A stretch of DNA of 20,082 nucleotides, taken from the IMG/VR virus record IMGVR_UViG_3300020395_000141, positions 1-20,082 of that record; one strand, 5' to 3'. This DNA is from a virus. The position numbers were made by a program, and so were the translations under genes. Below, one piece after another: positions 7,455-19,991 of the stretch (positions are counted from its first letter, which is position 1; the number at the start of each line of letters is the position of its first letter). The notes under the pieces are model-generated. The model did no database searches and was not told where the DNA came from. It worked only from the letters and a program-made list of their open reading frames with translations.

Positions 7455-7482
7455 TGGAAAATTACAACTTTCAAGTATCCTC

Positions 7483-7487
7483 AGGAG
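7483..7487 (+). promoter_or_regulatory. Ribosome binding site deciding the nrdB start
   Basis: AGGAG lies five bases before the ATG at 7493. The alternative ATG at 7454 overlaps the nrdA stop (TAATG) but has no comparable site, so 7493 is preferred. Confidence 0.6.
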
Positions 7488-7492
7488 TTAAT

Positions 7493-8647: not shown

Positions 8648-8721
8648 CCACATTTATAGTATGGGTATGTATTACAATTCTGTTGTACATATTTTTGAAA
8701 AATACAATTAACAATGCGTAA
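8644..8721 (+). CDS. Membrane micropeptide, 25 aa
   Basis: A very short gene starting with ATGA at the nrdB stop. Residues 3-19 (TFIVWVCITILLYIFLK) form a single membrane segment of ideal length, followed by a short polar tail. It overlaps the next gene by 8 bases. The two end-to-end overlaps and the clean hydrophobic segment argue for a translated peptide; the small size keeps the confidence moderate. The function is unknown; small single-pass peptides in phages often modulate host membrane proteins or lysis. Confidence 0.5.
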   Translation: MTTFIVWVCITILLYIFLKNTINNA

Positions 8722-9418
8722 ATATATTTTTGATGTTGATGGGACTTTGACTCCTAGTAGGAAGAAGATTGAACCAGAGTTCGCAGAGTTCTTCCGAGAG
8801 TTTATTAAAAACAATCATGTCTCTCTGGTTACTGGTAGTGACCGTGAGAAGACCTTAGAACAGGTTACACCAGAGATTTATAATTCTTGTAAGAGAGTTT
8901 ATAACTGCTCTGGTTCTGATGTGTATGAGGGAGATCTTATTATCTATAGAGATGAATGGGATTTACCTAAAGATGTAGAGATGCATCTAAAAGATGAATT
9001 GAACTTTAGTAAGTTCCCAGTTCGCAATGGTAATCATATTGAGAAGAGACCAGGTGGAGTTAATTTTAGTATCTTAGGTAGAGATCCTGATCCAATGCTT
9101 GGTAGGAAAGAATATATTAGTTGGGATAATATACATGGTGAGAGAACTTACATAGCAAGAAGACTTTTATATAACTTTCCAGACTTAACTGTAGCACTTG
9201 GAGGACAGACAGGTATTGATATAGGACCAAAGGGATCTGATAAGAGTCAGATTCTAAGAGACTTTGATAAGACTGATGATGTACACTTCTTTGGTGATAT
9301 GATGAAGGAAGGTCAGAATGACTATCCTTTAGCAATGGCAATACTTGATAATATGATGGGTACAGTTTATAATGTGGAAGATTATAAAGAGACTTGGAAA
9401 TTATTACTAAATATTTGA
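8714..9418 (+). CDS. Eukaryotic-type phosphomannomutase-like HAD protein, 234 aa
   Basis: The N terminus YIFDVDGTLTPSRKKI (Asp7, Asp9) is the HAD nucleophile motif in the form typical of PMM1/PMM2-type phosphomannomutases, which convert mannose-6-P and mannose-1-P. Further family landmarks are EKRPGGVNFSILGR (residues 110-123, substrate phosphate and sugar binding), Lys173 or Lys177, and HFFGDMMKEGQNDYPLA (residues 191-207, with Asp195, Asn202 and Asp203 as HAD motif IV). The length is near that of human PMM2 (246 aa). A general sugar-phosphatase role is the main alternative. A GDP-mannose 4,6-dehydratase begins at the right end of this window, which supports a mannose-nucleotide role. It overlaps the micropeptide upstream. 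Confidence 0.75.
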   Translation: MRKYIFDVDGTLTPSRKKIEPEFAEFFREFIKNNHVSLVTGSDREKTLEQVTPEIYNSCKRVYNCSGSDVYEGDLIIYRDEWDLPKDVEMHLKDELNFSKFPVRNGNHIEKRPGGVNFSILGRDPDPMLGRKEYISWDNIHGERTYIARRLLYNFPDLTVALGGQTGIDIGPKGSDKSQILRDFDKTDDVHFFGDMMKEGQNDYPLAMAILDNMMGTVYNVEDYKETWKLLLNI

Positions 9419-9439: not shown

Positions 9440-9910
9440 ATGGAACCCACCACAAAGACCTCAAATAGTGAAGGAGATTATGAAAACCCCTGGATATATC
9501 AAGGTTCAACTTTCACTTCTGCTGATATTGGCGACTTCTTCGGTTACGTCTACTGCATTACAAATATCAAGAGCGGTAGGAAGTACATCGGTAGGAAGAA
9601 CTTCCAACAGCATCGAAAGCATAGAGGTAGCAGACGCAAACGGACGAGTGAGAGTAACTGGAAGGCATACTACGGAAGTTCTAAAGAACTTAACGAAGAC
9701 AGGAAACTTCTGGGGAATAGTACATTCAAAAGAGAAATCCTCGGACTCTATCAATCTCAAGGAAAAGTAAATTACGAAGAGACAAGACAGTTATTTTTAA
9801 ATAATGTTTTAACTGAGTCCCTTGATGATGGTACTCCTGCATATTACAACAGTAATGTATTAGGGAGATATTATAAAAAAGATTATTATGAAGGTTCAGG
9901 AGACACATGA
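9440..9910 (+). CDS. GIY-YIG-like endonuclease, 156 aa
   Basis: Residues 35-55 contain GYVYCITN, then SGRKYIGRKNF, a GIY-YIG nuclease core with the Arg after the second motif (Arg52). WKAYYGSSKEL, then FKREILGLY and Glu113 or Glu114 in NYEETRQLF follow, as in small phage nucleases. The catalysed reaction would be DNA strand cleavage; this type includes both homing (Seg-like) and repair-type enzymes. No DNA-binding C-terminal domain of the I-TevI kind is seen, so a free-standing nuclease is favoured. The ATG at 9440 is chosen; a frame from 9420 overlapping most of the gene has no meaningful protein. It overlaps the next gene by 23 bases. Confidence 0.7.
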   Translation: MEPTTKTSNSEGDYENPWIYQGSTFTSADIGDFFGYVYCITNIKSGRKYIGRKNFQQHRKHRGSRRKRTSESNWKAYYGSSKELNEDRKLLGNSTFKREILGLYQSQGKVNYEETRQLFLNNVLTESLDDGTPAYYNSNVLGRYYKKDYYEGSGDT

Positions 9911-10388
9911 CATTATAATTAAAGATTATCCATATGCAGATTCTATTGATGTAGATTACTTCCCTTTAACTAGAGAAGTATATAATGCTGATGGTGGACT
10001 TACAAATGTTAGAGCACTTCAGACTGAGGTATATTATGATGTAGTAGATCCTAATATTAAAAATCTTTTTGATTGGGCATTAGGATTTCTTCCACAGGCA
10101 GACATATCAACACATGAGGTTGACCACTATTGGATAGCAAAGTATAATAGAGGAGACTTCACAGTAAGTCATACTCATTATCCATGTCTTTATTCGTTTG
10201 TTTACTTTGTAAATTCTCCTAAAGGGTCTTCCCCATTAGTGTTTACAACCAGTAAGCAAAGTGTAGAATCAAAGAGTGGAAGGATTGTAATCTTTCCTGG
10301 ATTTTTAGAACACTATGTTCCTGAGAATCAATGTGATAATAGAGTTATTATTGCAGGAAATTCCTATTTTACAGGACATTTATTATGA
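9888..10388 (+). CDS. 2OG-Fe(II) oxygenase-like protein, 166 aa
   Basis: Double-stranded beta-helix protein. The candidate metal triad is His95 or His97 (VSHTHYP) and His142 (PGFLEHYVP), with Arg152 (DNRVIIAGN) as the 2-oxoglutarate anchor. The intervening strands (LYSFVYFVNSP, GRIVIFPG) fit the fold. The first motif reads HTH instead of the usual HxD, a variant also seen in phage relatives annotated as 2OG oxygenases. The substrate is unknown. The start at 9888 lies inside the nuclease gene; no better in-frame start exists. It overlaps the next gene by 4 bases. Confidence 0.6.
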   Translation: MKVQETHDIIIKDYPYADSIDVDYFPLTREVYNADGGLTNVRALQTEVYYDVVDPNIKNLFDWALGFLPQADISTHEVDHYWIAKYNRGDFTVSHTHYPCLYSFVYFVNSPKGSSPLVFTTSKQSVESKSGRIVIFPGFLEHYVPENQCDNRVIIAGNSYFTGHLL

Positions 10389-10588
10389 ACGAGACCACGA
10401 ATGAGATTGTTACATTTGTACATGAATGGTCTATTGACCGTATATCAGAACTTTGGTATGAATCAGATGATGATCATAAGCGGAGGTTTGATGCTATGGC
10501 AATTTATGATGAATTTGCTGAGTGGACAGCAGAAGATCCAGACAAACGTGATCAAATAGAGGTCCTCTCAATTAAAAGTTTTTCCTAA
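10385..10588 (+). CDS. Small acidic hypothetical protein, 67 aa
   Basis: Starts with ATGA on the preceding stop. Acidic, probably helical (IVTFVHEWSIDRISELWYES, then EFAEWTAEDPDKRDQIEVL), Trp-rich for its size, with no membrane segment or motif. Not recognised. It is the last gene before a 128-base non-coding gap. Packing supports it as a real gene. Confidence 0.6.
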   Translation: MNETTNEIVTFVHEWSIDRISELWYESDDDHKRRFDAMAIYDEFAEWTAEDPDKRDQIEVLSIKSFS

Positions 10589-10591
10589 ATA
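10585..10591 (+). promoter_or_regulatory. Late promoter box CTAAATA
   Basis: CTAAATA overlaps the stop codon of the preceding gene and has the same core as the box at 1601. It heads the gap before the genes at 10717 and 10940; late transcription of the wall hydrolase would make sense, although the leader to 10717 would be long (about 120 bases). Confidence 0.4.
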
Positions 10592-10716
10592 ATTATTACC
10601 TTCACGGGTAAAATCAGCCAAGTAGAAGAATTTTGACATGTGGTAGCAATTTATTTTGCTCCGCTTTTTACGTTTCATGTACACATTTTTCTATGTTGGG
10701 TTACTAGTACAACTTA
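10592..10716 (+). other. Non-coding gap with partial promoter-like sequence and a weak hairpin
   Basis: TTGACA at 10633-10638 is a perfect -35 box and continues as TGTGGTAG, closely like the promoter at 11683, but at 17 bases downstream only TTGCTC is found, so a -10 box is missing. AGCAA (10645-10649) and TTGCT (10656-10660) form a 5-bp hairpin followed by a short T run (10663-10667), a weak terminator at best. TTACC and GGTAA near 10600 form another small hairpin. No gene is seen here. Confidence 0.35.
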
Positions 10717-10926
10717 ATGACAAGCAAGTATACTAGGGACATGCTAGTCAAGTCCATAGTTGCAAATCGTATGTCAGACGTAGATTCATCAGGAGATAAT
10801 GCACAGTACGTCAGTCAACTTAAAGATTTGTATCGGAAATGGGAGCATGTTTCGTCAGAGGAGTTAATCCTCATGTATAATAAGATTCAAAAGACTGCTA
10901 TCACACTAAGTCACTTAACCCCTTAA
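10717..10926 (+). CDS. Hypothetical helical protein, 69 aa
   Basis: Not recognised. Helical and charged throughout (MLVKSIVANRMSDVDSSGDN, then YVSQLKDLYRKWEHVSSEEL and ILMYNKIQKTAI), with no membrane segment or metal motif. It follows the non-coding gap and precedes the wall hydrolase by 13 bases, so both may share a transcript. Size and layout would also suit a small regulator, but no helix-turn-helix is clear. Confidence 0.6.
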   Translation: MTSKYTRDMLVKSIVANRMSDVDSSGDNAQYVSQLKDLYRKWEHVSSEELILMYNKIQKTAITLSHLTP

Positions 10927-10939
10927 AAGTTTTTTTGTT

Positions 10940-11344
10940 ATGATTCCAATCCCTTTAGTATGTTTAATGTACTCTACTCTCGATCCATCTGAGTATGTAG
11001 AGATAGCAAGAGTAGTACAAGTTGAAGCATACCGACATTCTAACGACGAATACGGTGTTGCTGCTAACATTATGAACCGAGTTGCATCTGACGACTTCCC
11101 AGATTCTATAACGGGAGTTACTAAGCAACCCCATCAATACGATGGATTAAAAAAATTTCCGAATAAGAAGATAGATCCAGAATTAGTCGCAAAGTTATCA
11201 TCACCCAAAGGGCAACTCGGTGTTTGTAATGCTCTGAATAAATTGGAAGGACGTAAGTATTTTAAGGGACAATCACAACTATATAATAGGGTTCCAGAAG
11301 AGGACCCCATGTTCCATCCTAATGGAAATTTTTATCACCACTGA
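10940..11344 (+). CDS. SleB-like cell wall hydrolase, 134 aa
   Basis: Resembles the SleB / Hydrolase_2 family of peptidoglycan-cleaving enzymes. The signature is ARVVQVEAYRHSNDEYGVAA (residues 23-42) with Glu29 as the likely catalytic acid, then NIMNRVASDDFPDSITGV (the family's NRV-xx-fPdtv pattern) and QPHQYDGL, ending with RKYFKGQSQLY and DPMFHPNGNFYHH. It would cleave host peptidoglycan at lysis or act in a virion. The N terminus (IPIPLVCLMY) is hydrophobic but too short for a convincing signal peptide, so export would need a holin; an alternative start is the internal Met10. About 134 aa is compact but covers the catalytic domain. Confidence 0.75.
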   Translation: MIPIPLVCLMYSTLDPSEYVEIARVVQVEAYRHSNDEYGVAANIMNRVASDDFPDSITGVTKQPHQYDGLKKFPNKKIDPELVAKLSSPKGQLGVCNALNKLEGRKYFKGQSQLYNRVPEEDPMFHPNGNFYHH

Positions 11345-11349
11345 CGATT

Positions 11350-11682
11350 ATGGACTTAGACAAGAACCAAGGTATTAAGCATGTTAATAGGAATGACCTA
11401 GGAGATTTTGGTGCAGATAATGTATCTGGGTTTATGGATTACATTGCCCAACAGGTAGGGGATGATGAGAATTCAATCTTACCTGCTGTAATGCAAAAAA
11501 ATACTGAGTCGATGGCATTGTATAATATGTCAAGAGCTCATCGTGAGAATTTAGATATTGTTACAGGTGCTCCTACCAAAGGATATAACAATAATAATTT
11601 TGACGACTATGATGATGATCCTAAGTTTGAGAAGAAGAAACCAAACCAACTCTTCTCAGATCATTACACACCTAAGAGGTAG
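11350..11682 (+). CDS. Hypothetical protein, 110 aa
   Basis: Not recognised. The N-terminal two thirds are helical (LGDFGADNVSGFMDYIAQQV, NTESMALYNMSRAHRENLDI). The last third is low complexity, with NNNNFDDYDDDP followed by KFEKKKPNQ, and probably disordered. It begins 5 bases after the hydrolase stop. Its TAG stop is followed immediately by the -35 box of a strong promoter, so a new transcription unit starts here. Function unknown. Confidence 0.65.
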   Translation: MDLDKNQGIKHVNRNDLGDFGADNVSGFMDYIAQQVGDDENSILPAVMQKNTESMALYNMSRAHRENLDIVTGAPTKGYNNNNFDDYDDDPKFEKKKPNQLFSDHYTPKR

Positions 11683-11711
11683 TTGACAAGTGGTAGTCAC
11701 TCATGTATAAT
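11683..11711 (+). promoter_or_regulatory. Consensus sigma70 promoter
   Basis: TTGACA (11683-11688), a 17-base spacer, and TATAAT (11706-11711): perfect matches at both boxes with ideal spacing. The start of transcription is expected near 11718. This is the strongest host-type promoter in the window and should be used by the cyanobacterial RNA polymerase right after infection. It points into the structured non-coding stretch that follows. Confidence 0.85.
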
Positions 11712-11748
11712 ACCTTTGTTGCAACGGCGGTTGTGACAGGGAGTGACT
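11695..11748 (+). repeat. 8-base inverted repeat flanking the -10 box and start site
   Basis: AGTCACTC at 11695-11702, in the promoter spacer, is the exact reverse complement of GAGTGACT at 11741-11748. The 38 bases between hold the -10 box and the predicted start. The arms could be paired operator half sites bringing a repressor to both sides of the promoter. Confidence 0.45.
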
Positions 11749-11935
11749 GAATAATCTTTCTGGCATATAGCTGGATAAGGTGATGAGACACAGGTGGTGC
11801 TGCTGGTTCTAGTGAACCAGAATCGACTTACCAGTCGGGTCTCAGGCAGGGATGTAATCTTACTTACTGTAGTAATGCCCGTCTCTTGTTGGTAATACAG
11901 GAATCCAACCTCCCACCTTTACTATTTTAAAAGCG
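11718..11935 (+). ncRNA. Putative structured RNA or 5' regulatory leader
   Basis: About 215 bases downstream of the consensus promoter contain no plausible gene but many perfect stems. CTGGTTC (11803-11809) pairs with GAACCAG (11814-11820) around a TAGT loop. CGACT (11824-11828) pairs with AGTCG (11833-11837). TGAGAC (11784-11789) and GTCTCA (11839-11844) enclose both. TTACT (11860-11864) pairs with AGTAA (11871-11875), flanked by GGCA/TGCC (11845-11848, 11876-11879). GTTGG (11888-11892) pairs with CCAAC (11905-11909). A small CAAC/GTTG hairpin lies near the 5' end (11722-11733). AGGTGG (11792-11797) can also pair with CCACCT (11913-11918), an alternative to the first set. No tRNA, tmRNA or RNase P signature was found. 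Whether it is a free RNA or the leader of the 11936 gene is open: no terminator is obvious before that ATG. Confidence 0.55.
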
Positions 11936-12148
11936 ATGGTTACTAAAACTGAGTTGATACATTGGAGACTACAAGCAGTATTGAGAGAGCATAGTTTCCC
12001 AGATTTAGAATACATCGGAGAGAGACCAAGTTATAAGACAGGTGATAATGTTCCTTGGTATCGTATAGGAAAAGCAGAAGTTCCTATTGATGCTATAACA
12101 GAATTTGAATGTGAGGAAGATGAAGATGGATCAGAGGATACCGAGTAA
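11936..12148 (+). CDS. Small acidic hypothetical protein, 70 aa
   Basis: First gene after the structured leader. Contains LIHWRLQAVLREHSFPDLEY, WYRIGKAEVPIDAITEFE, and an acidic tail (CEEDEDGSEDTE). No family recognised. The start ATG at 11936 has no strong Shine-Dalgarno site, so its translation could depend on the leader structure. It overlaps the cupin gene by about 23 bases. Confidence 0.6.
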   Translation: MVTKTELIHWRLQAVLREHSFPDLEYIGERPSYKTGDNVPWYRIGKAEVPIDAITEFECEEDEDGSEDTE

Positions 12149-12701
12149 AAAGAAGTCTCCTGATGATCTTTACCTTCAGACAGCATCTAAAGTAATCTCA
12201 GATCATGAGATAGATATTGATGAAGAAAAGATATTAGATCTTCTACAAATTAAATATAGATGGCCAGAACCTTCATTAGAAGTTATCAATCAATGTGGTA
12301 ACGTATCTAATGGATTTTTTGATTCTAAAGGGTATCTCTATTATGATAGATGGAAAGTTTTATATGACTTAGGATTCACAAGTCTTTTAAACAATATAAT
12401 GGACTTAACAAGTGACCTAAGAGAATTAGATAATAAACTGTATAAATTAAAAGGATCGGAGACTAATGCTAACTTATATCTCAGTCATGGGAGTGAGTTT
12501 AATAGATCTAGTTTTGATCCACATAAACATGAGTATCATGTAATTGTTAAACCCATTTATGGCACATGTGTATGGGAAGTAAATGGAAGAAAACAGACTG
12601 CTGATCCTAGTAGTGTTATTATATTACCAGCAGGTACAATGCATGCTGTAGTAGAGAATAAAGAACCACGATTATCTTTAACAATTAATATGTCAGGTTA
12701 G
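12126..12701 (+). CDS. Cupin (JmjC/2OG-like) metal-binding protein, 191 aa
   Basis: The C-terminal half carries both cupin motifs: DPHKHEYHVIVKPIYG (His133, His135, Glu136) and LPAGTMHAVVEN (PxGxxHxxxN form, His173), joined by the strand pair CVWEVNGRKQ. This is a single-domain cupin with an N-terminal helical part (residues 1-110) that has no clear relatives. It probably binds Fe or another metal and may be an oxygenase of the JmjC-like type, but the lysine or threonine that would anchor 2-oxoglutarate could not be assigned. Starts at 12105, 12120 or 12126 are possible; GAGG at 12113-12116 suits 12120 or 12126. Confidence 0.65.
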   Translation: MDQRIPSKKKSPDDLYLQTASKVISDHEIDIDEEKILDLLQIKYRWPEPSLEVINQCGNVSNGFFDSKGYLYYDRWKVLYDLGFTSLLNNIMDLTSDLRELDNKLYKLKGSETNANLYLSHGSEFNRSSFDPHKHEYHVIVKPIYGTCVWEVNGRKQTADPSSVIILPAGTMHAVVENKEPRLSLTINMSG

Positions 12702-12705
12702 AACA

Positions 12706-12948
12706 ATGATAGTAAGATGTAAAGAATGTAAAACTGAGATAACTAGTTCATCTAAACCTCAGGGTTGCGGATGTCCTAATAGACTGATAGTATATGACGA
12801 ACAGGTTAGTGCCAATGATCTTAGTAAGGTTATAATGGTTCAGAACCATGCCAAAGATCAATCATCATCTTTAAGTAAGGATGATATTGCTTGGCAAGAA
12901 CAAAGACGAAAGCGTAAAGTTCGTAAACTAAATTTTGAGGTACGTTAA
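12706..12948 (+). CDS. Small zinc-ribbon protein, 80 aa
   Basis: The N terminus MIVRCKECKTEI and SKPQGCGCPN provides four cysteines (Cys5, Cys8, Cys21, Cys23), forming a small zinc ribbon. A middle segment (YDEQVSANDLSKVIMVQN) and a basic C terminus (QRRKRKVRKLNF) follow. A family of small T4-like phage proteins has the same CxxC/CGCPN, NDLSKV layout (I recall DUF7695, not checked). It could bind nucleic acid through the basic tail. The stop overlaps the next start (TAATG). Confidence 0.65.
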   Translation: MIVRCKECKTEITSSSKPQGCGCPNRLIVYDEQVSANDLSKVIMVQNHAKDQSSSLSKDDIAWQEQRRKRKVRKLNFEVR

Positions 12949-13571
12949 TGCCAGCAGCAATTGAAAAATGGATAGGTTTATATCTCAGAGAGATCTGTGA
13001 TATACATGTTCCTTATGATGTACCACCTGGAAGACCACCAGAAGAGAAGGTAGGTCATACTATTGGATTTGATTTTAAAGGCAAGCAGATACTTGTTTGT
13101 CCTTATTGTATTGAATATAAGAATAAGTTTGACTATCTTAAAGAGGAGTGGTATGCCATCAAAGATAAGCATTCACCTGATTATGTAAAGGATAAGATTA
13201 TTAAACTTGCTAATAATATTAGGGTAATGGAATCTGGACGTGTAGGTGATGTTGGTTGGGATGTTAAATACCTATGTGATCCTACGGAGTTTACTCCTAG
13301 GCAACGTGCTCATATTGCTCTTAAAAGTTTCCCTCTCATGAAGAAATTCTTGTACAGTGGGATGATGGGTCTCAAGGCAAAACCTGGAGACGTAATCGCA
13401 TCACACCCTACAGGATTTAAATGGGATCTTGGACACACAAAGCATTCCGAGAAGAAAGGATCTCATCAAAGAAGTGTACTCTCTAAAAAGTATTTTAATT
13501 TTGGAGATGTTAAAGAAGATGGGATGCAATATGCATATTATGATGAGAACTTCCAGTTACAACCTATTTAA
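12948..13571 (+). CDS. Hypothetical protein with CPYC motif, 207 aa
   Basis: Not recognised. Visible elements are an early CPYC motif (residue about 51, a single Cys pair), ESGRVGDVGWDVKYLCDP, a helical stretch (RQRAHIALKSFPLMKKFLYS), and a conserved-looking C-terminal part rich in His, Lys and Gly (HPTGFKWDLGHTKHSEKKGS). The His-rich end could be metal- or phosphate-binding. There is no membrane segment. The start overlaps the zinc-ribbon stop by one base; the next gene, an oxygenase, begins two bases after its stop, so all three probably belong to one operon. Confidence 0.55.
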   Translation: MPAAIEKWIGLYLREICDIHVPYDVPPGRPPEEKVGHTIGFDFKGKQILVCPYCIEYKNKFDYLKEEWYAIKDKHSPDYVKDKIIKLANNIRVMESGRVGDVGWDVKYLCDPTEFTPRQRAHIALKSFPLMKKFLYSGMMGLKAKPGDVIASHPTGFKWDLGHTKHSEKKGSHQRSVLSKKYFNFGDVKEDGMQYAYYDENFQLQPI

Positions 13572-13573
13572 AA

Positions 13574-14161
13574 ATGTTTATTAACGAAGCAACTAAAATA
13601 GATACCAGTATATTTACAGATAATCTAGAACAGATTAAGAAGGATTATATTAGGTTTAGGGATAGGCAATACTTCTTTGACTATTCTCATACTTATAATC
13701 TTACTGCTAATGCTGGAGACTTCTCTGATTTTGTTCCAACACAGACTGGATATAAGTGGCAAGTATGTCCTATGATTTTTAATCGCTATGCGATTAGGGT
13801 TGTACCTTTAGAGATAAGACAGTCTTTTACAACTGATCTTTTATTAGCACAAGAAATAAAACCAGTTCTTGCTGTGTTCTCTATACTAGAATCAGGGGCA
13901 GAGTTAGATCCACATTCTGATGGTGATAAGAGAATAGATCCACAGTATTGGGATTCTACTGTATATAAATTCCACTTTGCTTTAGATGTACCAGAGGATG
14001 GTGATAGTGGATTAGTATGTGGAGGTGAGACAAGATTATTAAAGAATGGAGATCTTAATATATTTGATGAGGAAGGAGAACATTATGCATATAATAGAAG
14101 TACTGGTAGAAGAGGAGTTCTGATAGTCTCCTACATAAAAGCTGAGATTGACAAGGGTTAA
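13574..14161 (+). CDS. Aspartyl/asparaginyl beta-hydroxylase-like 2OG oxygenase, 195 aa
   Basis: Matches the Asp/Asn beta-hydroxylase family of 2OG-Fe(II) enzymes. ELDPHSDGDKR (His114-x-Asp116) and GEHYAYNRSTGRRGVLIVSY (His170, with Arg179 or Arg180 as the 2-oxoglutarate anchor) supply the facial triad and co-substrate site. The strand YKFHFALDVPEDG and the loop VCGGETRLLKNGDLNIFDEE lie in family order. The length is typical of the free-standing catalytic domain. The substrate is unknown; family members hydroxylate Asp/Asn in proteins or small molecules such as siderophore precursors. The promoter of the next unit lies within its last codons. Confidence 0.75.
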   Translation: MFINEATKIDTSIFTDNLEQIKKDYIRFRDRQYFFDYSHTYNLTANAGDFSDFVPTQTGYKWQVCPMIFNRYAIRVVPLEIRQSFTTDLLLAQEIKPVLAVFSILESGAELDPHSDGDKRIDPQYWDSTVYKFHFALDVPEDGDSGLVCGGETRLLKNGDLNIFDEEGEHYAYNRSTGRRGVLIVSYIKAEIDKG

Positions 14162-14176
14162 TTGCCCATGTAAAAT
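14148..14176 (+). promoter_or_regulatory. Sigma70-type early promoter
   Basis: TTGACA (14148-14153), a 17-base spacer, and TAAAAT (14171-14176). It resembles the 11683 promoter beyond the boxes: both read TTGACAAG at the start and CATGTA at the spacer/-10 junction. The start is expected near 14183, leaving about 10 bases before ATG 14194. It opens the oxygenase unit 14194-16187. Confidence 0.7.
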
Positions 14177-14193
14177 ACTTGTAATTGAATGAT

Positions 14194-14802
14194 ATGATGG
14201 AACCACATAACGTTACAGATCATGCTGCTTGGTACTTTGTTGAGAAAGTACCTGATAAGTTAGTTGATATCATGGTTGAAGAACTTGAAGAGATGGAGAG
14301 GGATAGAGTTCCTTTTGAAGATGCTGGTGTAGGTGGTGATTTACATGGAAGAAATGATCGTGCGGTAAGAAATTCAAAGGTACAATGGTGGTATGAAGAT
14401 CATTGGGCATGTAGTTTGATGTCTCATTATATTGGAATTGCAAATAGAAGAAATTGGGAATATGATTTAAATCTGTTAGAGAGTATTCAGATCTCTGTTT
14501 ACCTAGGAAAAGATCAAGGTGGTGGAGAAGGTGGTCACTATGGATGGCATAGTGATTATGGTACATCTAAGAGAGGAGATTGGACACGTAAATTAAGTGC
14601 AAGTCTTTTAGTCTCAGACCCAAGTGAATATGAGGGTGGAGATCTTATACTATTAGACTATCATAATAACGAAGTTAAAATGCCTAAAGAGAAGGGTTCA
14701 ATAATTGTTTTTGATTCTAGACTTCCGCATAAAGTTACTCCTGTAACTACTGGTAGAAGAGTGTCTTTAGTAACTTGGATGTATGGTCCTAAGTTGAGAT
14801 GA
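14194..14802 (+). CDS. 2OG-Fe(II) oxygenase, PKHD/prolyl hydroxylase-like, 202 aa
   Basis: A clear oxygenase of the prolyl 4-hydroxylase superfamily. The triad is GWHSDYG (His119, Asp121) and RLPHKVTP (His179), with Arg188 or Arg189 in TGRRVSLVTWMYGP as the 2-oxoglutarate anchor. The core strands RKLSASLLVSDPSEYEGGDL and GSIIVFDSRLPHK are very typical of PKHD-type hydroxylases. The ATG at 14194 is preferred; a TTG at 14185 and an ATG at 14197 are alternatives. The early promoter start maps about 10 bases upstream. It overlaps the next gene by 4 bases. The substrate is unknown. Confidence 0.85.
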   Translation: MMEPHNVTDHAAWYFVEKVPDKLVDIMVEELEEMERDRVPFEDAGVGGDLHGRNDRAVRNSKVQWWYEDHWACSLMSHYIGIANRRNWEYDLNLLESIQISVYLGKDQGGGEGGHYGWHSDYGTSKRGDWTRKLSASLLVSDPSEYEGGDLILLDYHNNEVKMPKEKGSIIVFDSRLPHKVTPVTTGRRVSLVTWMYGPKLR

Positions 14803-15449
14803 AATGGCCCAAGTTTACAAAGGAAGGTTTTAGAAAAGTAAAATTACCACAGGATTTGTATGTAGAAATCTTTGGTCATTATAGTCAAGGGTTTAATCCT
14901 AATCAAGTTACTGAGGATTATACTTTTTTTGATGAACAATTTGATGAATTAGTTGCTGATGGTTCAATAGCAGTTAGAGGTTCAGACACACCAATATCTT
15001 TAATAGATCATATTCCTGATGAATTAATTAATAGATGGAGTGAACGTTTAAGACCTATGATGGAGAGATGGTCTAATACATCTCTTGTTTATTCTGCTGG
15101 GTATGGTATTAGAGAATATATTCCAAACTCTATTCTTTGTTGTCATAGAGATAGGAAGCAGACCCATGTAATCAGTTGTATTATTTTTATTGACGAATCT
15201 CCAAAGGGAACTAATTGGCCTTTGGAGTTTGTTGATCATGAAAAGAATATACATAAAGTGGTCTTCGAGAGGGGAGATATGCTATTATATGAGAGCTTAT
15301 GTCCCCACTCAAGAATCACACCATTCAGGGGTGATTACTATAGGAATATGTATTTCCATTGGAGACCAGCAGACTGGGATGATTCCCCCTATAATGGCAA
15401 GGTTAAATACTCTTGCTTACAAGAAGTACTCGACGAGGAAGTCCAATGA
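14799..15449 (+). CDS. 2OG-Fe(II) oxygenase (prolyl 4-hydroxylase-like), 216 aa
   Basis: Starts with ATGA on the previous stop. The C-terminal half has ILCCHRDRKQTHVISCIIFI (His116-x-Asp118), GDMLLYESLCPHSRITPFRG (His170), and Arg177 or Arg182 for 2-oxoglutarate, in the order expected of the fold. The N-terminal 100 residues are helical and include a WSERLRPMMERW segment, as in related phage oxygenases. Both key motifs are intact, so catalytic activity is likely. The substrate is unknown. Confidence 0.75.
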   Translation: MKWPKFTKEGFRKVKLPQDLYVEIFGHYSQGFNPNQVTEDYTFFDEQFDELVADGSIAVRGSDTPISLIDHIPDELINRWSERLRPMMERWSNTSLVYSAGYGIREYIPNSILCCHRDRKQTHVISCIIFIDESPKGTNWPLEFVDHEKNIHKVVFERGDMLLYESLCPHSRITPFRGDYYRNMYFHWRPADWDDSPYNGKVKYSCLQEVLDEEVQ

Positions 15450-15718
15450 AACCCTTAGAGAAAAATGCAACTGAAACAATTACACTAGAGGAATTTAGAG
15501 ATAACTTCCAAGGTGTTGTAAGTCAATGCGAACGAGGACAAAATTATCGAATTGAAAGTGAGTTTGGTTTACTAGAACTTAGAGTTCTTGATGATACTAG
15601 ACATGTAAGACCATTGGTAAAACCAACTTGGCCTCCTGCAGATACATATGCTGGCAATTTTAAATCAGAAGAGTATCGTGAATTTGAGCGTAGATTAGAT
15701 GGACCATGTGATATCTGA
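15446..15718 (+). CDS. Small protein with Phd/YefM-like N terminus, 90 aa
   Basis: The ATG at 15446 overlaps the previous stop (ATGA) and has GAGG nearby; an upstream ATG at 15413 is less likely. Residues about 10-50 (ETITLEEFRDNFQGVVSQCE, GQNYRIESEFGLLELRVL) follow the layout of Phd/YefM antitoxin N-terminal domains: strand, helix with an Asn-Phe pair, then a beta hairpin. There is no recognisable toxin beside it. The remainder (PTWPPADTYAGNFKSEEYRE) is not family-like. It could be a lone transcription regulator, an antitoxin against a host toxin, or unrelated. Confidence 0.5.
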   Translation: MKPLEKNATETITLEEFRDNFQGVVSQCERGQNYRIESEFGLLELRVLDDTRHVRPLVKPTWPPADTYAGNFKSEEYREFERRLDGPCDI

Positions 15719-16187
15719 TAACTTTTTAGATAGAGAATCTTTTGAATCTATCAAAGAAGTTGTTATGGGAAGTAATACTATCCCGTGGTTTTTATCATGG
15801 GGTGTATCTTCTGAAAATGCAGAAGGAGAAGGTGCGTATTTTACACACACCTTCTATTCTGACTATCAGATTATTAGTGAATATTTTAAACTCTTAGTAC
15901 CTATATTCAAACAAGTTAGACCAAAAGCTTTGATACGGGCAAGAGCAAATATGTCATATCAAACATCTGAAAGGATCTATCATGGTATGCATACTGATTA
16001 TCCTTATGAGCATAAAGGTTTAATATTATATCTGAATGATAATGACTCTTGTACTGTTCTTGAGGATGGTACTGAGGTTGAATGTAGAGAGAATAGAATT
16101 TTATTTTTTGATCCAAGTAAAGAACATTCTAGTACAACATGTACAGATCAGACAGTTCGTTCGATTATTATTGTGAACTATTTTTAG
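15699..16187 (+). CDS. 2OG-Fe(II) oxygenase-like protein, 162 aa
   Basis: Compact double-stranded beta-helix oxygenase: YHGMHTDYPYEHKGLILYLN (His98-x-Asp100), RENRILFFDPSKEHSSTT (His143), and Arg154 in TVRSIIIVNYF as the 2-oxoglutarate anchor. All four positions are present. The start ATG lies 20 bases inside the upstream gene. It is the last gene of the 14194 unit; its stop is followed immediately by a new promoter. The substrate is unknown. Confidence 0.75.
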   Translation: MDHVISDNFLDRESFESIKEVVMGSNTIPWFLSWGVSSENAEGEGAYFTHTFYSDYQIISEYFKLLVPIFKQVRPKALIRARANMSYQTSERIYHGMHTDYPYEHKGLILYLNDNDSCTVLEDGTEVECRENRILFFDPSKEHSSTTCTDQTVRSIIIVNYF

Positions 16188-16216
16188 TTGACTACATAAT
16201 GTAGTTCCACTATAAT
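16188..16216 (+). promoter_or_regulatory. Sigma70-type early promoter
   Basis: TTGACT (16188-16193), a 17-base spacer, and a perfect TATAAT (16211-16216). It lies just after the stop of the preceding gene. The start is expected near 16223; TGGTT/AACCA (16216-16220 and 16226-16230) forms a small hairpin there. It drives 16240-18574. Confidence 0.75.
16191..16205 (+). repeat. Perfect 7-base palindrome in the promoter spacer
   Basis: ACTACAT (16191-16197) and ATGTAGT (16199-16205) are exact reverse complements around one central base, overlapping the -35 box and filling the spacer. This is the size and position of a dimeric repressor operator. Confidence 0.5.
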
Positions 16217-16239
16217 GGTTGGGTAAACCAATCAGAGCA

Positions 16240-16455
16240 ATGACTCTCACAACTAAGTTCAAGAAGGACCTAAGCACATTACGTGCTGCTGTAAACAAAG
16301 AAATTTACTTAGATGTTAAAAATCCAAAACTGTATAAAAAGATTAGACGTTATTATCAGAATGAGTTAGAGTTCACAGGGGAAGATCCTGAAAGAGAATA
16401 CACTTCAATCATGGAGTGTATTGCTGAAGATTTACAATCGGTTGAAGTTACGTGA
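16240..16455 (+). CDS. Small charged hypothetical protein, 71 aa
   Basis: The ATG at 16240 is preferred because a TTG at 16219 would lie at the expected transcription start. The protein (FKKDLSTLRAAVNKEIYLDV, then NPKLYKKIRRYYQNEL) is helical and basic in its first half and acidic in its second. It looks like a small protein found in several cyanophages next to oxygenase genes, from memory only. Its stop overlaps the next gene's GTG start (GTGA). Function unknown. Confidence 0.65.
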   Translation: MTLTTKFKKDLSTLRAAVNKEIYLDVKNPKLYKKIRRYYQNELEFTGEDPEREYTSIMECIAEDLQSVEVT

Positions 16456-17087
16456 TTAGGAAAGTTAGATTGACACATGAAAATGAAGAGGGGGTTGTTA
16501 TAAAACCCTCTGTCTTTTTAAAACAAGATTTTATTGGTGTCTGGGATGATGTATTCCCAGATAACTTTTGTGAGTTTATAAAGAACTACGTAGATACTAG
16601 TTCATATCTTGCTGGTCGAGACACACCTTACGTACAAGATAAACAAATTTGCATATCTGCATTTTCTCCAGCAGAAGCAGACTATTGTATGGAAGGGGTT
16701 AATCATTGTTTAAAGCAATATATCAATTGGTATCCATATTTAAAAAACTTTAGTTATCATAGTAGTTTGTGTCTATTACAAAAGACAGAACCATTACAAG
16801 GTTATCATCCATTTCATTGTGAAGATACTACATGGGATGCTGTTCAAAGAACTTTAGCATGGATGGTATATTTTAATGATGTTGATGAAGGTGGTGAGAC
16901 TGAATGGTTATACCAACAATTAAAGATACAACCTAAAGCAGGTAGAGTTGTAATTTGGCCAGGTGCATTTACACATTTGCATAGAGGTAATCCACCAATG
17001 AGTGATAAGTATATTGCGACTGGATGGTATGTGTCCAGTCAGGGGATGTATGAACATGAAGTCAGTAGTCAAGATCCCCCATCTTGA
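16452..17087 (+). CDS. 2OG-Fe(II) oxygenase-like protein with HxE variant, 211 aa
   Basis: The GTG start at 16452 is coupled to the upstream stop. The core GYHPFHCEDTTWDA, LAWMVYFNDVDEGGETEWLY, GRVVIWPGAFTHLHRGNPP and KYIATGWY is that of a common cyanophage oxygenase family. The first metal pair reads His122-x-Glu124 instead of HxD; His175 is the distal ligand. The 2-oxoglutarate anchor is not the usual Arg on the last strand: Lys186 or Arg178 may replace it. Glu can serve as an iron ligand, so the protein may still be active. It overlaps the radical SAM gene by 38 bases, which suggests strict co-expression. Confidence 0.7.
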   Translation: MIRKVRLTHENEEGVVIKPSVFLKQDFIGVWDDVFPDNFCEFIKNYVDTSSYLAGRDTPYVQDKQICISAFSPAEADYCMEGVNHCLKQYINWYPYLKNFSYHSSLCLLQKTEPLQGYHPFHCEDTTWDAVQRTLAWMVYFNDVDEGGETEWLYQQLKIQPKAGRVVIWPGAFTHLHRGNPPMSDKYIATGWYVSSQGMYEHEVSSQDPPS

Positions 17088-17859
17088 ATGGCACGTTACC
17101 GACTCATGTAATTTTACTTGTTTAGGTTGTGGACATTATACTAATGATGGATATAGAAAAGATTTTAGTGTTGATGAATTAAAATCATGGTACTTACCTT
17201 GGGTTGATAAGATTAGACCAAGGGAATTATCTATGCTTGGTGGTGAACCTTTATTGAATAAGGATCTTATAGAGATCATCTATATGACCAAAGAGGTTTG
17301 GAATATAGAATCCGATCAGCAATTTGAATTGGTAAGTAATGCTTTATTAATTAATAAACATCCTGATCTTCCTAAAGCATTACGTGATACTGGTTGTAGT
17401 CTAACTATTACAAAACATTCTGAAGATCCAACATACTTAAAATTATTTGATAAGTCTATTAAAACTATTGATGAATGGGGTATAGAATATGTTATTCATG
17501 ATGCAACTCACTATTGGTTGAAAGGGTATGCTGGATATGGTTCTAATATTAAACCGTTAAAAGGAGACTTCCAAGAGAGTTGGAATAACTGTCCAACTGG
17601 ACAGGAGAATTTTCAATTGTATAATGGTAAGATATATAAGTGTGCTCCTTTAGCATATCTTCCCACACAAAAAGAAAAGTATCCTGATTTATCTGAAGAA
17701 TGGAATCCTTACCTCAAGTATATACCATTAGAACCTGATGGTAATATAGAAGAATTCTTTTCTAGAGAAGCAGAACTGGTTTGTTCTATGTGTCCAAATA
17801 GTACTGAGTTGATGAGTAAACCTTCACCTTTAAATCCACCATCTTATTATGCAAAGTGA
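17050..17859 (+). CDS. Radical SAM enzyme with extra C-terminal cysteines, 269 aa
   Basis: The radical SAM motif CxxxCxxC is Cys20, Cys24 and Cys27 (DSCNFTCLGCGHY), preceded by the strand LEWHVTD. The SAM-binding GGEPLL starts at residue 64. Four later cysteines, Cys181, Cys198 (YNGKIYKCAP) and Cys245/Cys248 (CSMCP), resemble a SPASM/twitch-type site for an auxiliary Fe-S cluster, often found in peptide-modifying radical SAM enzymes. The start is taken as ATG 17050, preceded by AGGGG at 17041-17045; ATG 17056 is an alternative and ATG 17002 would add 16 unlikely residues. It lies between a 2OG oxygenase and a beta-helix protein. The substrate is unknown. Confidence 0.8.
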   Translation: MNMKSVVKIPHLEWHVTDSCNFTCLGCGHYTNDGYRKDFSVDELKSWYLPWVDKIRPRELSMLGGEPLLNKDLIEIIYMTKEVWNIESDQQFELVSNALLINKHPDLPKALRDTGCSLTITKHSEDPTYLKLFDKSIKTIDEWGIEYVIHDATHYWLKGYAGYGSNIKPLKGDFQESWNNCPTGQENFQLYNGKIYKCAPLAYLPTQKEKYPDLSEEWNPYLKYIPLEPDGNIEEFFSREAELVCSMCPNSTELMSKPSPLNPPSYYAK

Positions 17860-18574
17860 TTATCTTTACAGTAAGAACGATGTCTTCTCAGAAGATTTGA
17901 GATTAGATATACTCAAGTCATCTGAGAAGCATTTTGCTAATAACTTAGTTGATGGTGATAATGGAATCTTACAGATAACAGAAGCTATTATTGATTGTCA
18001 TGGTCTATCATTAAGTCCAAGTTCATTCTTCCCATATTCAGAGAGATGTTGGAATATATTTTGTTTAAAGATTAGGGATTTGGTATATGAGTATTGTGAT
18101 AAGTCAGATATAAATTGGTCTTCAATGATTCCATTTTCTTGTTGGGGTGAAAGGATAACTTATAAACCATTTGAAGGAGTACCTAGACCTAAGTGGGAGC
18201 ATAGAATATTCTCTCGTTTATATGAGAGTAATAAGAATGTTCCTGATACTTGGAATCAAATGGGTGGTAGTGTTGGATTAAGAAATACAAATGAACCTAG
18301 AATATCTACTGATATTCAGGTACATAAAACTTTTATTAGGTGTGTTTATTATCTACAGACCGATGGATTATTCGGAACTCATGTTGAGACACCAGAAGTT
18401 TATCATCATACTGGTGTAGAGAATTCTGTATTTATTTTTAATACTAGTGAACTTCCAAATTATAATATTCTTCCACATAATCCTAGGACTATAGAGAAGA
18501 CACCACCTACTAATATAATATTTGACTGGTATATTAATGATCCTTTTGAAGTACCTGATTGGGTCTTACCTTAA
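17849..18574 (+). CDS. Beta-helix oxygenase-like protein lacking metal ligands, 241 aa
   Basis: Similar over its length to the two minus-strand proteins that follow: FCLKIRDLVYEYCDKSDINW and FSCWGERI match their LAILQYCKLADIDHTRI and LFAARL segments, and RISTDIQVHKTFIRCVYYLQ matches the first metal strand. Where the best-preserved paralogue has HAH the sequence reads STD (residues 153-155), and the distal His position is Asn205 (LPNYNILPH). It is therefore either inactive or uses other ligands; His158 and His178 are nearby candidates. It overlaps the radical SAM gene by 11 bases and the convergent gene by 4. Confidence 0.6.
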   Translation: MQSDYLYSKNDVFSEDLRLDILKSSEKHFANNLVDGDNGILQITEAIIDCHGLSLSPSSFFPYSERCWNIFCLKIRDLVYEYCDKSDINWSSMIPFSCWGERITYKPFEGVPRPKWEHRIFSRLYESNKNVPDTWNQMGGSVGLRNTNEPRISTDIQVHKTFIRCVYYLQTDGLFGTHVETPEVYHHTGVENSVFIFNTSELPNYNILPHNPRTIEKTPPTNIIFDWYINDPFEVPDWVLP

Positions 18575-19305
18575 TCTGGGTATCCTTCTACATCTGTTAG
18601 GTTAACATCAATTTCTATAGTGCGTCTTCCAACATCTTTAATTACTTCATATGGTGGATAGATTGCAGCATGCATTAACTTAGGGTTGAATACAAAAGCA
18701 CTGTTTGCATTTGGTTCATGGAAGTATAATTGTTTAGTATCTGTTTGCACCATTGTTCCATATTCAGAACCAGGTATCTCTAAGTATATTATTAATTTCA
18801 CTACATTATTTGGTGCAGAACCAGTATCACTATAAACATTTCCTACAGGACAGTTTCTTCCATTCTCTCTGTGTAGATTATTAAAGGCAGAGTATCTATT
18901 CCATCTTGCTAATGCTTTTTCTGGATTTTGTTCTGGAAGTTTAAAAAGTCTTGCAGCAAATAAAGAATGTAAACCTATTCTAGTGTGATCTATATCTGCT
19001 AATTTACAGTATTGAAGTATTGCTAATCTAGATCTCTCTAATACTGTCTTCCACATACCAGTATCATTCTCTATATCTCTTAAGAATCCGTCAGACTTCT
19101 CTGGTGGGAATTGATCATAACCTATTAACTCACCTTCTTTACGTAGAGGAGATGTACAGACTGTTATATCAATTGGTTTAATCTTAGCGTCAGTAATTCT
19201 TTTATCACAATCTTCTATTAGATCTTTAACAATATTATCAGGGAGAAATTCATGGAATTTGCAGAAGTAGTTTCCATTAATTTTTTGTATCTGTGCTCTA
19301 GTCAT
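18571..19305 (-). CDS. Beta-helix oxygenase-like protein, variant metal site, 244 aa
   Basis: Minus-strand gene. The start at 19305 is set by a strong Shine-Dalgarno site (AAAGGAGA, five bases upstream); an earlier ATG at 19344 would overlap the neighbour. It is a paralogue of the 19307 gene: NYFCKFHEFLPDNIVKDLI aligns with YHFYKVYNFLPEEELKERF, and both have xFPPExS and HxAIYPP. The first metal strand reads GNVYSD (Tyr158-x-Asp160, no His), while His212 (MHAAIYPP) and Arg227 or Arg228 remain. Catalysis as a normal 2OG oxygenase is doubtful; binding or an altered chemistry is possible. The gene ends tail to tail with the 17849 gene, sharing TTAA. Confidence 0.65.
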   Translation of the reverse strand: MTRAQIQKINGNYFCKFHEFLPDNIVKDLIEDCDKRITDAKIKPIDITVCTSPLRKEGELIGYDQFPPEKSDGFLRDIENDTGMWKTVLERSRLAILQYCKLADIDHTRIGLHSLFAARLFKLPEQNPEKALARWNRYSAFNNLHRENGRNCPVGNVYSDTGSAPNNVVKLIIYLEIPGSEYGTMVQTDTKQLYFHEPNANSAFVFNPKLMHAAIYPPYEVIKDVGRRTIEIDVNLTDVEGYPD

Positions 19306-19306
19306 A

Positions 19307-19963
19307 TCACTCTCCTTTATATAATACCCTATCAATGTATGCATAGTCTGCTACCACTGTTATTCTAGGGTGCTTCTGTGTCATATTTAATGGTGGATAT
19401 ATTGCACTATGCTCTAGTCTACCATCAAATATTATTAATGAGTTTTCTTGTCCTACATTAGTTTGATATGTATCACCTGGGAATTTTATACTAGTCCCAT
19501 ATTTTGGATGAGGATTTGTTAGATAGTAAACTGTAGTGATGGGATTGAATTTATGATGAGCATGCATATTACCTTTGGTACTATGCTGTCTCATTCTTTT
19601 TTCTAAATCTTTTAGGTCATGTTCCCCTTCAAAATCTAAGTCCTTAAGTCTTGTGATCCAGGATGAATGTAATTCTATAGTGTTGTTTAGGAGACCTATT
19701 ATCTCACAATATTTTTTTATATGTATATCTAATCTTCTATAATATTCTTTCCATAAAGGTTCGTTATCAAATCCCAGTTCCAGTAATCTCCATGATGCTT
19801 CTGGTGGGAATACTTCTTCAGTAATTGGTTTTCTATTTTCTTCTAACCACTTTGTAGCAGATGTAAATCTTTCTTTTAACTCTTCTTCTGGTAAAAAGTT
19901 ATAAACTTTATAGAAGTGGTAACCATATGCTTTTACGACCTTTACTTTTTCCACAAGCATCAT
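19307..19963 (-). CDS. 2OG-Fe(II) oxygenase-like protein, 218 aa
   Basis: Minus-strand gene, first of a two-gene unit. The likely metal site is GNMHAHHKFN (His134, His136), and GRLEHSAIYPP supplies His185, with Arg200 in HPRITVVADY as the 2-oxoglutarate anchor. The strands TTVYYLTNPHPKYGT and NSLIIFDG complete the fold. HxH replaces HxD, as in the 9888 protein. This is the most complete of the three paralogues (17849, 18571, 19307). The start may be ATG 19963, ATG 19960 or a GTG a little further in. Its expression should be late, from the CATAAATA box upstream. Confidence 0.65.
   Translation of the reverse strand: MMLVEKVKVVKAYGYHFYKVYNFLPEEELKERFTSATKWLEENRKPITEEVFPPEASWRLLELGFDNEPLWKEYYRRLDIHIKKYCEIIGLLNNTIELHSSWITRLKDLDFEGEHDLKDLEKRMRQHSTKGNMHAHHKFNPITTVYYLTNPHPKYGTSIKFPGDTYQTNVGQENSLIIFDGRLEHSAIYPPLNMTQKHPRITVVADYAYIDRVLYKGE
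19311..19318 (-). promoter_or_regulatory. Strong ribosome binding site AAAGGAGA
   Basis: On the minus strand AAAGGAGA precedes the ATG at 19305 by five bases. It lies within the last codons of the upstream gene and decides the start of the 18571 gene. Confidence 0.7.
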
Positions 19964-19991
19964 TGATATGTAAGATTATTTATGCTATACT
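19963..19991 (+). promoter_or_regulatory. Sigma70-type early promoter for gmd
   Basis: TTGATA (19963-19968), a 17-base spacer, and TATACT (19986-19991), with 5 of 6 matches at each box. The start is expected near 19998, 15 bases before the dehydratase ATG at 20013. Confidence 0.65.
19977..19984 (-). promoter_or_regulatory. Late promoter box CATAAATA on the minus strand
   Basis: Read on the minus strand the sequence is CATAAATA, identical to the box at 2415. The expected start near 19971 leaves about 8 bases to ATG 19963. It overlaps the spacer of the divergent early promoter. Confidence 0.55.

Follow-up and report, generated by a model that had tools for sequence, protein, structure and literature searches.

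Cyanophage glycan islands and related systems

Oxygenase-rich genomes and glycan islands are both known from cyanophages, and here we describe a conserved block of 2-oxoglutarate (2OG) oxygenase genes, together with a radical S-adenosylmethionine (SAM) enzyme gene, that stands ahead of such an island in IMG/VR record IMGVR_UViG_3300020395_000141 and its relatives. The window, meaning the whole stretch analyzed (positions 1 to 20,082), is a complete record from a T4-like phage of marine cyanobacteria, and in its nrdA/nrdB region it gives matches of 74 to 84% to cyanophage records. Comparable islands occupy the same site in P-SSM2, S-CAM9, ACG-2014f, SynMITS9220M01, and S-SCSM1, and their contents are called lipopolysaccharide (LPS) genes in the cyanophage literature (PMC3037559). 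The site is the same as in our locus: the island follows nrdB/GIY-YIG and a conserved gene termed g16219 here, which marks its insertion site, and in the isolates examined (P-SSM2, S-CAM9, and ACG-2014f) it precedes hli/ferredoxin/psbA. The islands of P-SSM2 and ACG-2014f resemble those of the window's relatives in holding Gmd, Fcl, and glycosyltransferases of families GT11, GT6, and GT25, and that of P-SSM2 is also known to contain a PhyH-type gene. These 'LPS'-island isolates lack the radical SAM enzyme and the oxygenase-type proteins P3, P8, and P10 described below, whereas up to eight oxygenase-type genes precede Gmd in the locus studied here.

The oxygenase-richest published isolate that we found, S-SCSM1, encodes 24 2OG oxygenases in 229 kb (PMC9602691), in line with the statement in a preliminary description of this DNA that cyanophages carry several such enzymes. 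S-SCSM1 shares with our locus orthologues of P4 (52%) and P5 (46%), a GDP-fucose pathway, fucosyltransferases, and the island itself, and it is the sole isolate with a relative of P5. Genes are closely spaced between its g12706 and g16219 markers, where the P4 and P5 orthologues enclose a gene for a GDP-fucose O-fucosyltransferase (O-FucT; PF10250, 1e-15) that is present in no other phage of a 50,697-record collection. It differs in that its oxygenases are spread genome-wide and its island lacks the radical SAM enzyme, P3, P8, and a clear P10. S-SCSM2R shares a relative of the radical SAM enzyme (41%), which likewise occurs with oxygenases and glycosyltransferases, but has no P3 or P8 and only a weak P10, and it adds an aminotransferase and an amidinotransferase. 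In this phage and in two metagenomic lineages (L049 and L050), P5-like and P7-like oxygenase domains are joined in one protein of ~424 residues, and the radical SAM relative lies among glycosyltransferases. In S-SCSM2R and L050 the fusion gene is clustered with the radical SAM relative, transferases, a DegT-type aminotransferase, and an amidinotransferase (StrB1-like in S-SCSM2R; PDB 1bwd, 1e-60), the last two being enzymes of amino-/guanidino-sugar chemistry.

Hydroxylation followed by glycosylation is familiar from other systems: Skp1 is modified by a prolyl 4-hydroxylase (P4H) and then receives a GlcNAc-Gal-Fuc chain, and in collagen hydroxylysine is formed and then extended by a GT25 transferase. 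The Skp1 pathway resembles the present locus in pairing a P4H-type enzyme with transferases for alpha1,2-fucose and an alpha1,3-linked sugar; its transferases belong to other families, and no target protein is known here.

The complete block is absent from the 50,697 phage records, in which P3 has no match, P5 matches S-SCSM1 only, P10 has one weak match, and the radical SAM enzyme has two (41% and 27%). The portions of the literature on cyanophage oxygenases, radical SAM enzymes, and fucose available to us describe no block of conserved gene order that combines a dead paralogue with a radical SAM enzyme, and to our knowledge an oxygenase/radical SAM block ahead of the glycan island is new.

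Composition of the oxygenase/radical SAM block

The oxygenase-type and cupin proteins are numbered P1 to P10 along the window, and the block comprises the following genes.

13574..14161, plus strand: P3, aspartyl/asparaginyl-hydroxylase-type oxygenase (PF05118, 1.6e-14)
14194..14802, plus strand: P4, PKHD/P4H-type 2OG oxygenase (PF13640, 7e-16), motif HSD..H..RR
14799..15449, plus strand: P5, oxygenase (phrog_2954, 5e-10), motif HRD..H..R, overlapping P4 by 4 bp
15699..16187, plus strand: P6, oxygenase (phrog_274, 2e-42), motif HTD..H..R, in 4 of 21 lineages
16452..17087, plus strand: P7, P4H-type oxygenase (PF13640, 1e-9), motif HxE..H..K
17050..17859, plus strand: radical SAM enzyme, a superfamily member by profile (PF04055, 2.6e-10) and CX3CX2C motif
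17849..18574, plus strand: P8, paralogue of P10 with the 2OG fold, metal-binding residues missing
18571..19344, minus strand: P9, paralogue of P10 (BLASTP, 7e-18), motif HxE..H..R
19307..19963, minus strand: P10, 2OG oxygenase with HxH..H..R where HxD is usual

About 20 genes lie between positions 9888 and 19963, among them every open reading frame (ORF) that the preliminary description had placed there. Its count of some ten double-stranded beta-helix proteins resolves into nine genes with the 2OG-oxygenase fold (P1 and P3 to P10) and one cupin gene (P2), and the ten do not form one set. The fold was assigned through Pfam for P1, P3, P4, and P7, through PHROG profiles only for P5 and P6, through homology to P10 for P9, and through a predicted model and fold search for P8 and P10, the two proteins whose structures were predicted; both models match P4H-type folds, and P2 has no accepted match to a 2OG-oxygenase family and is classed as a cupin only. 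Homologue alignments show the metal ligands (HxD/E..H) and the 2OG-binding Arg/Lys to be invariant in P3, P4, P5, and P7, while the active-site motifs of P1 and P6 were read from their sequences only. The description had also judged most of these proteins too different to be simple duplicates, and apart from P8, P9, and P10 no close duplicates exist among the ten (best other pairs, E ~0.002 by BLASTP). No direct profile link was found between P10 and P7 or P4, so that the unity of the oxygenases lies in fold and motif. The density to which it had drawn attention stands out against the isolates as well, with nine oxygenase-type genes in 10 kb of the window versus 24 in the whole of S-SCSM1.

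In P3, the residues HSD (114-116), H170, and RR179-180 are invariant or nearly so among six aligned homologues, with one A replacing S in HSD. The closest solved structure to P4 is PiuC, and those closest to P7 are the Bacillus anthracis P4H and the viral collagen P4H of PBCV-1 (prolyl 4-hydroxylases, 1e-7). Three PHROGs that match proteins with 2OG-oxygenase active-site motifs here (2954, 3531, and 274) bear the names 'ferrochelatase' or 'DNA endonuclease V'; we judged the labels of phrog_2954 (ferrochelatase) and phrog_274 (endonuclease V) to be wrong. Record NC_070962 likewise names the P4 orthologue of S-SCSM1 (H82) a ferrochelatase, yet this protein matches PF13640 at 2e-17. In marine phages, 'ferrochelatase' has been reported as co-enriched with 2OG oxygenases (PMC11561400), which may in part reflect such misannotation.

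P8 and P10 are homologous by hhalign of separately built alignments (98.9%, E 1.6e-17), the comparison on which we rely because our iterated hidden Markov models of the two proteins drifted into one another. The P10 model is of high confidence (predicted local distance difference test [pLDDT], 91) and has a P4H-like predicted fold matching P4H/2OG structures. Confidence in the P8 model, which matches PHD/P4H folds, is modest (pLDDT 65; core strands better), and none of the three ligand positions is conserved in any of 20 homologues. P8 is thus probably a catalytically dead pseudo-oxygenase; its tentative listing with the oxygenases at 17849 was right as to fold and wrong if enzyme activity was meant. 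The P9 duplicate is present in some lineages only.

The radical SAM gene overlaps an oxygenase gene, as had been noted: it likely starts at the ATG at 17050, behind AGGGGA, which gives an overlap of 38 bp with P7 (our alignments begin at position 17068, leaving the core unaffected). Beyond CX3CX2C, four cysteines (C175, C192, C239, and C242 in alignment numbering) are invariant in 19 sequences and could hold one auxiliary cluster, which would make the enzyme Twitch-like. BtrN is a small-molecule Twitch enzyme (PMC6231123), and the BtrN-type dehydrogenases resemble the present protein in their single four-Cys auxiliary cluster (predicted here), small size, sugar-type gene context, and lack of a RiPP recognition element (RRE), RiPPs being ribosomally synthesized and posttranslationally modified peptides. 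They share no detectable sequence match with it, BtrN having given no match in PDB at E<=10. The enzyme has no N-terminal peptide-binding domain; no RRE-like N terminus was found, the CX3CX2C core lying near the start in all homologues and leaving no room for one. One pattern-based, nonexhaustive GTDB scan returned no cellular relative, so a cellular origin was set aside and the enzyme is apparently phage specific.

The block genes are tightly packed, with several overlaps of 4 to 38 bp and P9/P10 on the opposite strand, an arrangement that fits cotranscription.

Recurrence of the block and its attachment to a fucose-glycan operon

A search of IMG/VR with the radical SAM enzyme found 43 loci, and 40 contigs including the window fell into 21 lineages at 97% identity (L numbers below); the relatives are metagenomic contigs, several of them nearly identical. 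The order P3-P4-(P5)-(P6)-g16219-P7-radical SAM-P8-P10, the last on the minus strand, recurs at protein identities down to 40 to 60% and is kept, with losses and with P10 duplicated as P9, in 19 of the 21 lineages. P8 is found in 19 lineages, P4 in 18, P7 in 17, P3 and P10 in 16 each, P5 in 15, and P6, which comes and goes, in 4; P1 and P2 turn up only sporadically. P8 is missing from two lineages (L044 and L047), which have no block oxygenase at all and carry the radical SAM gene directly before Gmd; where P10 is absent otherwise, the contig stops within P8 or at its boundary. A P3-based scan showed that most P3 contigs of sufficient length carry the block too. Exceptions are L084 and L085, where P3 accompanies Gmd/Fcl/GT11/GT6 without the radical SAM gene, and L059, where P3, again without it, adjoins a gene resembling purC. 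A P7-based scan found oxygenases of that type in dozens of marine contigs that have nothing else of the block, and P4-type oxygenases are also widespread without the radical SAM gene. Because the P3, P4, and P7 types have this wider distribution, we take P8, P10, and the radical SAM gene as the signature of the block. For this core, independent occurrence, which would have spoken against a shared pathway, was not what the survey found. The proposal of one pathway acting on a shared substrate fits an ordered set kept with the radical SAM gene over many lineages, and it does not extend to all ten genes, given the sporadic P1 and P2, the P3, P4, and P7 types found elsewhere, and the probably dead P8.

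The contig stops 119 bases past P10, just before Gmd. L003, 98% identical to the window and 93 to 100% identical in the block proteins, continues into Gmd, Fcl, and GT11. Contigs of 18 lineages extend further, and in every one of these the Gmd cluster comes next. Gmd is GDP-mannose dehydratase and Fcl is GDP-fucose synthase; they are followed by GT11, GT6, an unnamed transferase-like gene, a HAD/nucleotidyltransferase fusion, more transferases, and finally a GT25-type gene. On L004 the families were identified beyond doubt by Pfam (PF16363, 8e-151; GT11 PF01531, 5e-25; GT6 PF03414, 5e-24). GT11 and GT6 stand side by side, and the H (alpha1,2-fucosyl) and A/B (alpha1,3-Gal/GalNAc) blood-group transferases belong to these two families, which points to a putative ABO/H-type specificity. 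A simple hydropathy scan detected no transmembrane segments in the cluster proteins examined, and hence no flippase or polymerase, and O-FucT had no match in the IMG/VR relatives. Gmd, Fcl, and glycosyltransferase genes occupy the nrdB-to-hli hotspot in L003, L004, L008, L009, and L169, as in the glycan ('LPS') islands. Judged by gene order, the radical SAM enzyme belongs to the glycan operon, since in L044 and L047 it directly precedes Gmd with no oxygenase between. The view that sequence gives no sight of the substrate was too pessimistic, as the block directly adjoins a GDP-fucose/GT11/GT6 operon in relatives. This context favors tailoring of a glycan or glycoconjugate over DNA modification.

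Proposed function and competing explanations

We consider it fairly probable that the block and the radical SAM enzyme tailor the sugar or the acceptor of a fucosylated glycoconjugate in the broad sense. The linkage to the Gmd operon, the company of P3 with glycan genes in L084 and L085, and the four auxiliary cysteines and missing RRE of the radical SAM enzyme, as in small-molecule Twitch enzymes, all speak for this. Gmd and Fcl would convert GDP-mannose to GDP-fucose, GT11 would add fucose, and GT6 (the ABO-transferase family) with the other transferases would lengthen the chain. The radical SAM enzyme would remove hydrogen from a carbon of the sugar or acceptor in a Twitch-type oxidation or epimerization, and the oxygenases would hydroxylate sugar or acceptor positions, so that a carrier would come to bear an unusual fucosylated glycan; P8 would perhaps assist the P10 enzyme as a noncatalytic partner. 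We speculate that this carrier is most likely a virion protein or the surface of the host cell, modified in the course of infection, and that its modification could block competing phages or change adsorption. Within glycoconjugate tailoring, two routes appear about equally likely: sugar tailoring, because the radical SAM gene directly precedes Gmd in L044 and L047 and accompanies the amino-/guanidino-sugar cluster of S-SCSM2R and L050, and hydroxylation of a protein acceptor, because of the P4-O-FucT-P5 row of S-SCSM1 and the P4H-like closest structures of P7 and P10. If correct, glycoconjugate tailoring may help to explain ABO-family transferases in cyanophages, and the block adds a conserved dead oxygenase and, as far as the one GTDB scan reaches, a phage-specific radical SAM enzyme.

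Several points weigh against this proposal. The linkage could reflect shared residence in an island, oxygenases being found all over cyanophage genomes and P7 and P4 types being common without glycan genes. The closest structures of P7, P10, and P8 are protein/proline hydroxylases, which fit a protein substrate at least equally well. The family name O-FucT is no proof of a protein acceptor. Distance correlations with the radical SAM enzyme are similar for backbone genes (r 0.74-0.78) and block genes (0.70-0.87), and we dropped the idea that the block moves as one piece, as its values are not clearly above the backbone and do not separate transfer from shared descent.

Protein hydroxylation, in which Pro, Asn, or Lys of a virion or host protein becomes an attachment site for glycosyltransferases, as in Skp1 and collagen, is a real though lesser possibility; our degrees of confidence overlap and are not meant to add up, since this route is counted both within glycoconjugate tailoring and as a competitor predicting different chemistry. 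The similarity of P7 to prolyl 4-hydroxylases and of P10/P8 to P4H folds, the Asp/Asn hydroxylase family of P3, the GT25 and O-FucT genes of such islands, and the negative hydropathy scan for a membrane-spanning flippase or polymerase all agree with it. Fold likeness, however, does not fix the substrate, and the cluster has no conserved substrate protein; collagen-like repeats (PF01391) occur in only one of nine relatives, and a collagen-like virion substrate was rejected as a general rule. A more elaborate version of glycoconjugate tailoring, rather doubtful as a whole, would be a phage hydroxylate-then-glycosylate pathway with no cellular counterpart, in which 2OG hydroxylases, a pseudo-oxygenase partner, and a Twitch-type radical SAM enzyme act on acceptor residues or sugars in preparation for a fucosylated, blood-group-like glycan on virions or the infected cyanobacterium.

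Lipid or LPS tailoring, with P3 hydroxylating acyl chains as LpxO or OlsC do and the other enzymes modifying the outer core of host LPS, is unlikely: it would suit the island's 'LPS' name (PMC3037559), but the weak matches of P3 to LpxO (1.8e-5) and OlsC (5.6e-5) lie far under curated cutoffs (24 versus 500 bits) and reflect a shared superfamily, and neither acyl nor lipid genes are present in the cluster. That unrelated accessory genes gathered by chance in a plastic hotspot is improbable and already disfavored; variability of the island at this site is known, and P1, P2, and P6 come and go, yet ordered co-occurrence persists at only 40 to 60% protein identity and in more than one phage background. 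A RiPP-like pathway with the radical SAM enzyme as peptide maturase is very unlikely. The enzyme weakly resembles several peptide maturases and YydG, but we rejected the pathway because neither an RRE nor a precursor-like ORF that is conserved turned up, the small ORFs encoding a Phd-like antitoxin and a core phage protein, and the enzyme is kept beside Gmd without the other enzymes. Least likely by our estimate is that the oxygenases, abundant in cyanophages, have a 2OG-drawdown or nitrogen-stress role, mainly consuming 2OG and reprogramming the host, a published hypothesis (PMC3037559) that leaves the strict order, fusion, radical SAM enzyme, dead paralogue, and glycan linkage unexplained; for uncoupled turnover, several conserved families would be unnecessary. 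Draining of 2OG is the standing proposal for cyanophage oxygenases, and a glycan-tied block offers a specific, testable class of substrate instead.

Other genes of the window and its relatives

The remaining features are as follows.

8714..9418, plus strand: phosphomannomutase (PF03332), eukaryotic type, kept in the closest relatives
9888..10388, plus strand: P1, 2OG-FeII_Oxy_5 oxygenase (PF13759, 4e-9), outside the conserved block
12126..12701, plus strand: P2, cupin (AraC_binding, 2e-6; Cupin_2), outside the conserved block
14148..14176, plus strand: promoter-like site before P4, TTGACA-17-TAAAAT, near-perfect and conserved
16219..16455, plus strand: g16219, conserved cyanophage protein (T4-GC249 in P-SSM2), not an oxygenase
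19963..19991, plus strand: promoter-like site at the contig end, TTGATA-17-TATACT, before the Gmd operon seen in L003/L004

The phosphomannomutase could feed mannose precursor or GDP-mannose to Gmd/Fcl. The genes had been described as short units led by host-type promoters; the site before P4 agrees with this, scoring at least 11/12 in 9 of 17 relatives versus 3% of control stretches, while the regional total of promoter-like sites is unexceptional (69 versus 52.7 +/- 9.5).

A Phd-like antitoxin gene (phrog_375; 15461-15718) lies inside the oxygenase block with no adjoining toxin gene. Beside P3, positions 12948-13571 encode a conserved 207-amino-acid protein of unassigned family, inverted in roughly half the lineages and not found in the isolate loci examined. 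Elsewhere in the window, 10940-11344 encodes an endolysin-like cell wall hydrolase (PF07486), and 1629-2222 a lipase-like alpha/beta hydrolase recognized by its GHSLGG motif only. In L085, genes reading like transaldolase, glucose-6-phosphate dehydrogenase, and 6-phosphogluconate dehydrogenase (4562-9157) stand just before P3 at the island. Directly after the glycan operon, L044 (19392-20270) and L169 (916-2460) encode proteins reading like cyanobacterial surface-layer homology (SLH)-domain porins, which suggests remodeling of the host outer membrane. The contig behind L025 (G007) encodes, within 31812-44501, ORFs of 1,548 and 3,201 amino acids rich in collagen-like repeats, and the same phage carries the radical SAM enzyme, P8, and P10.

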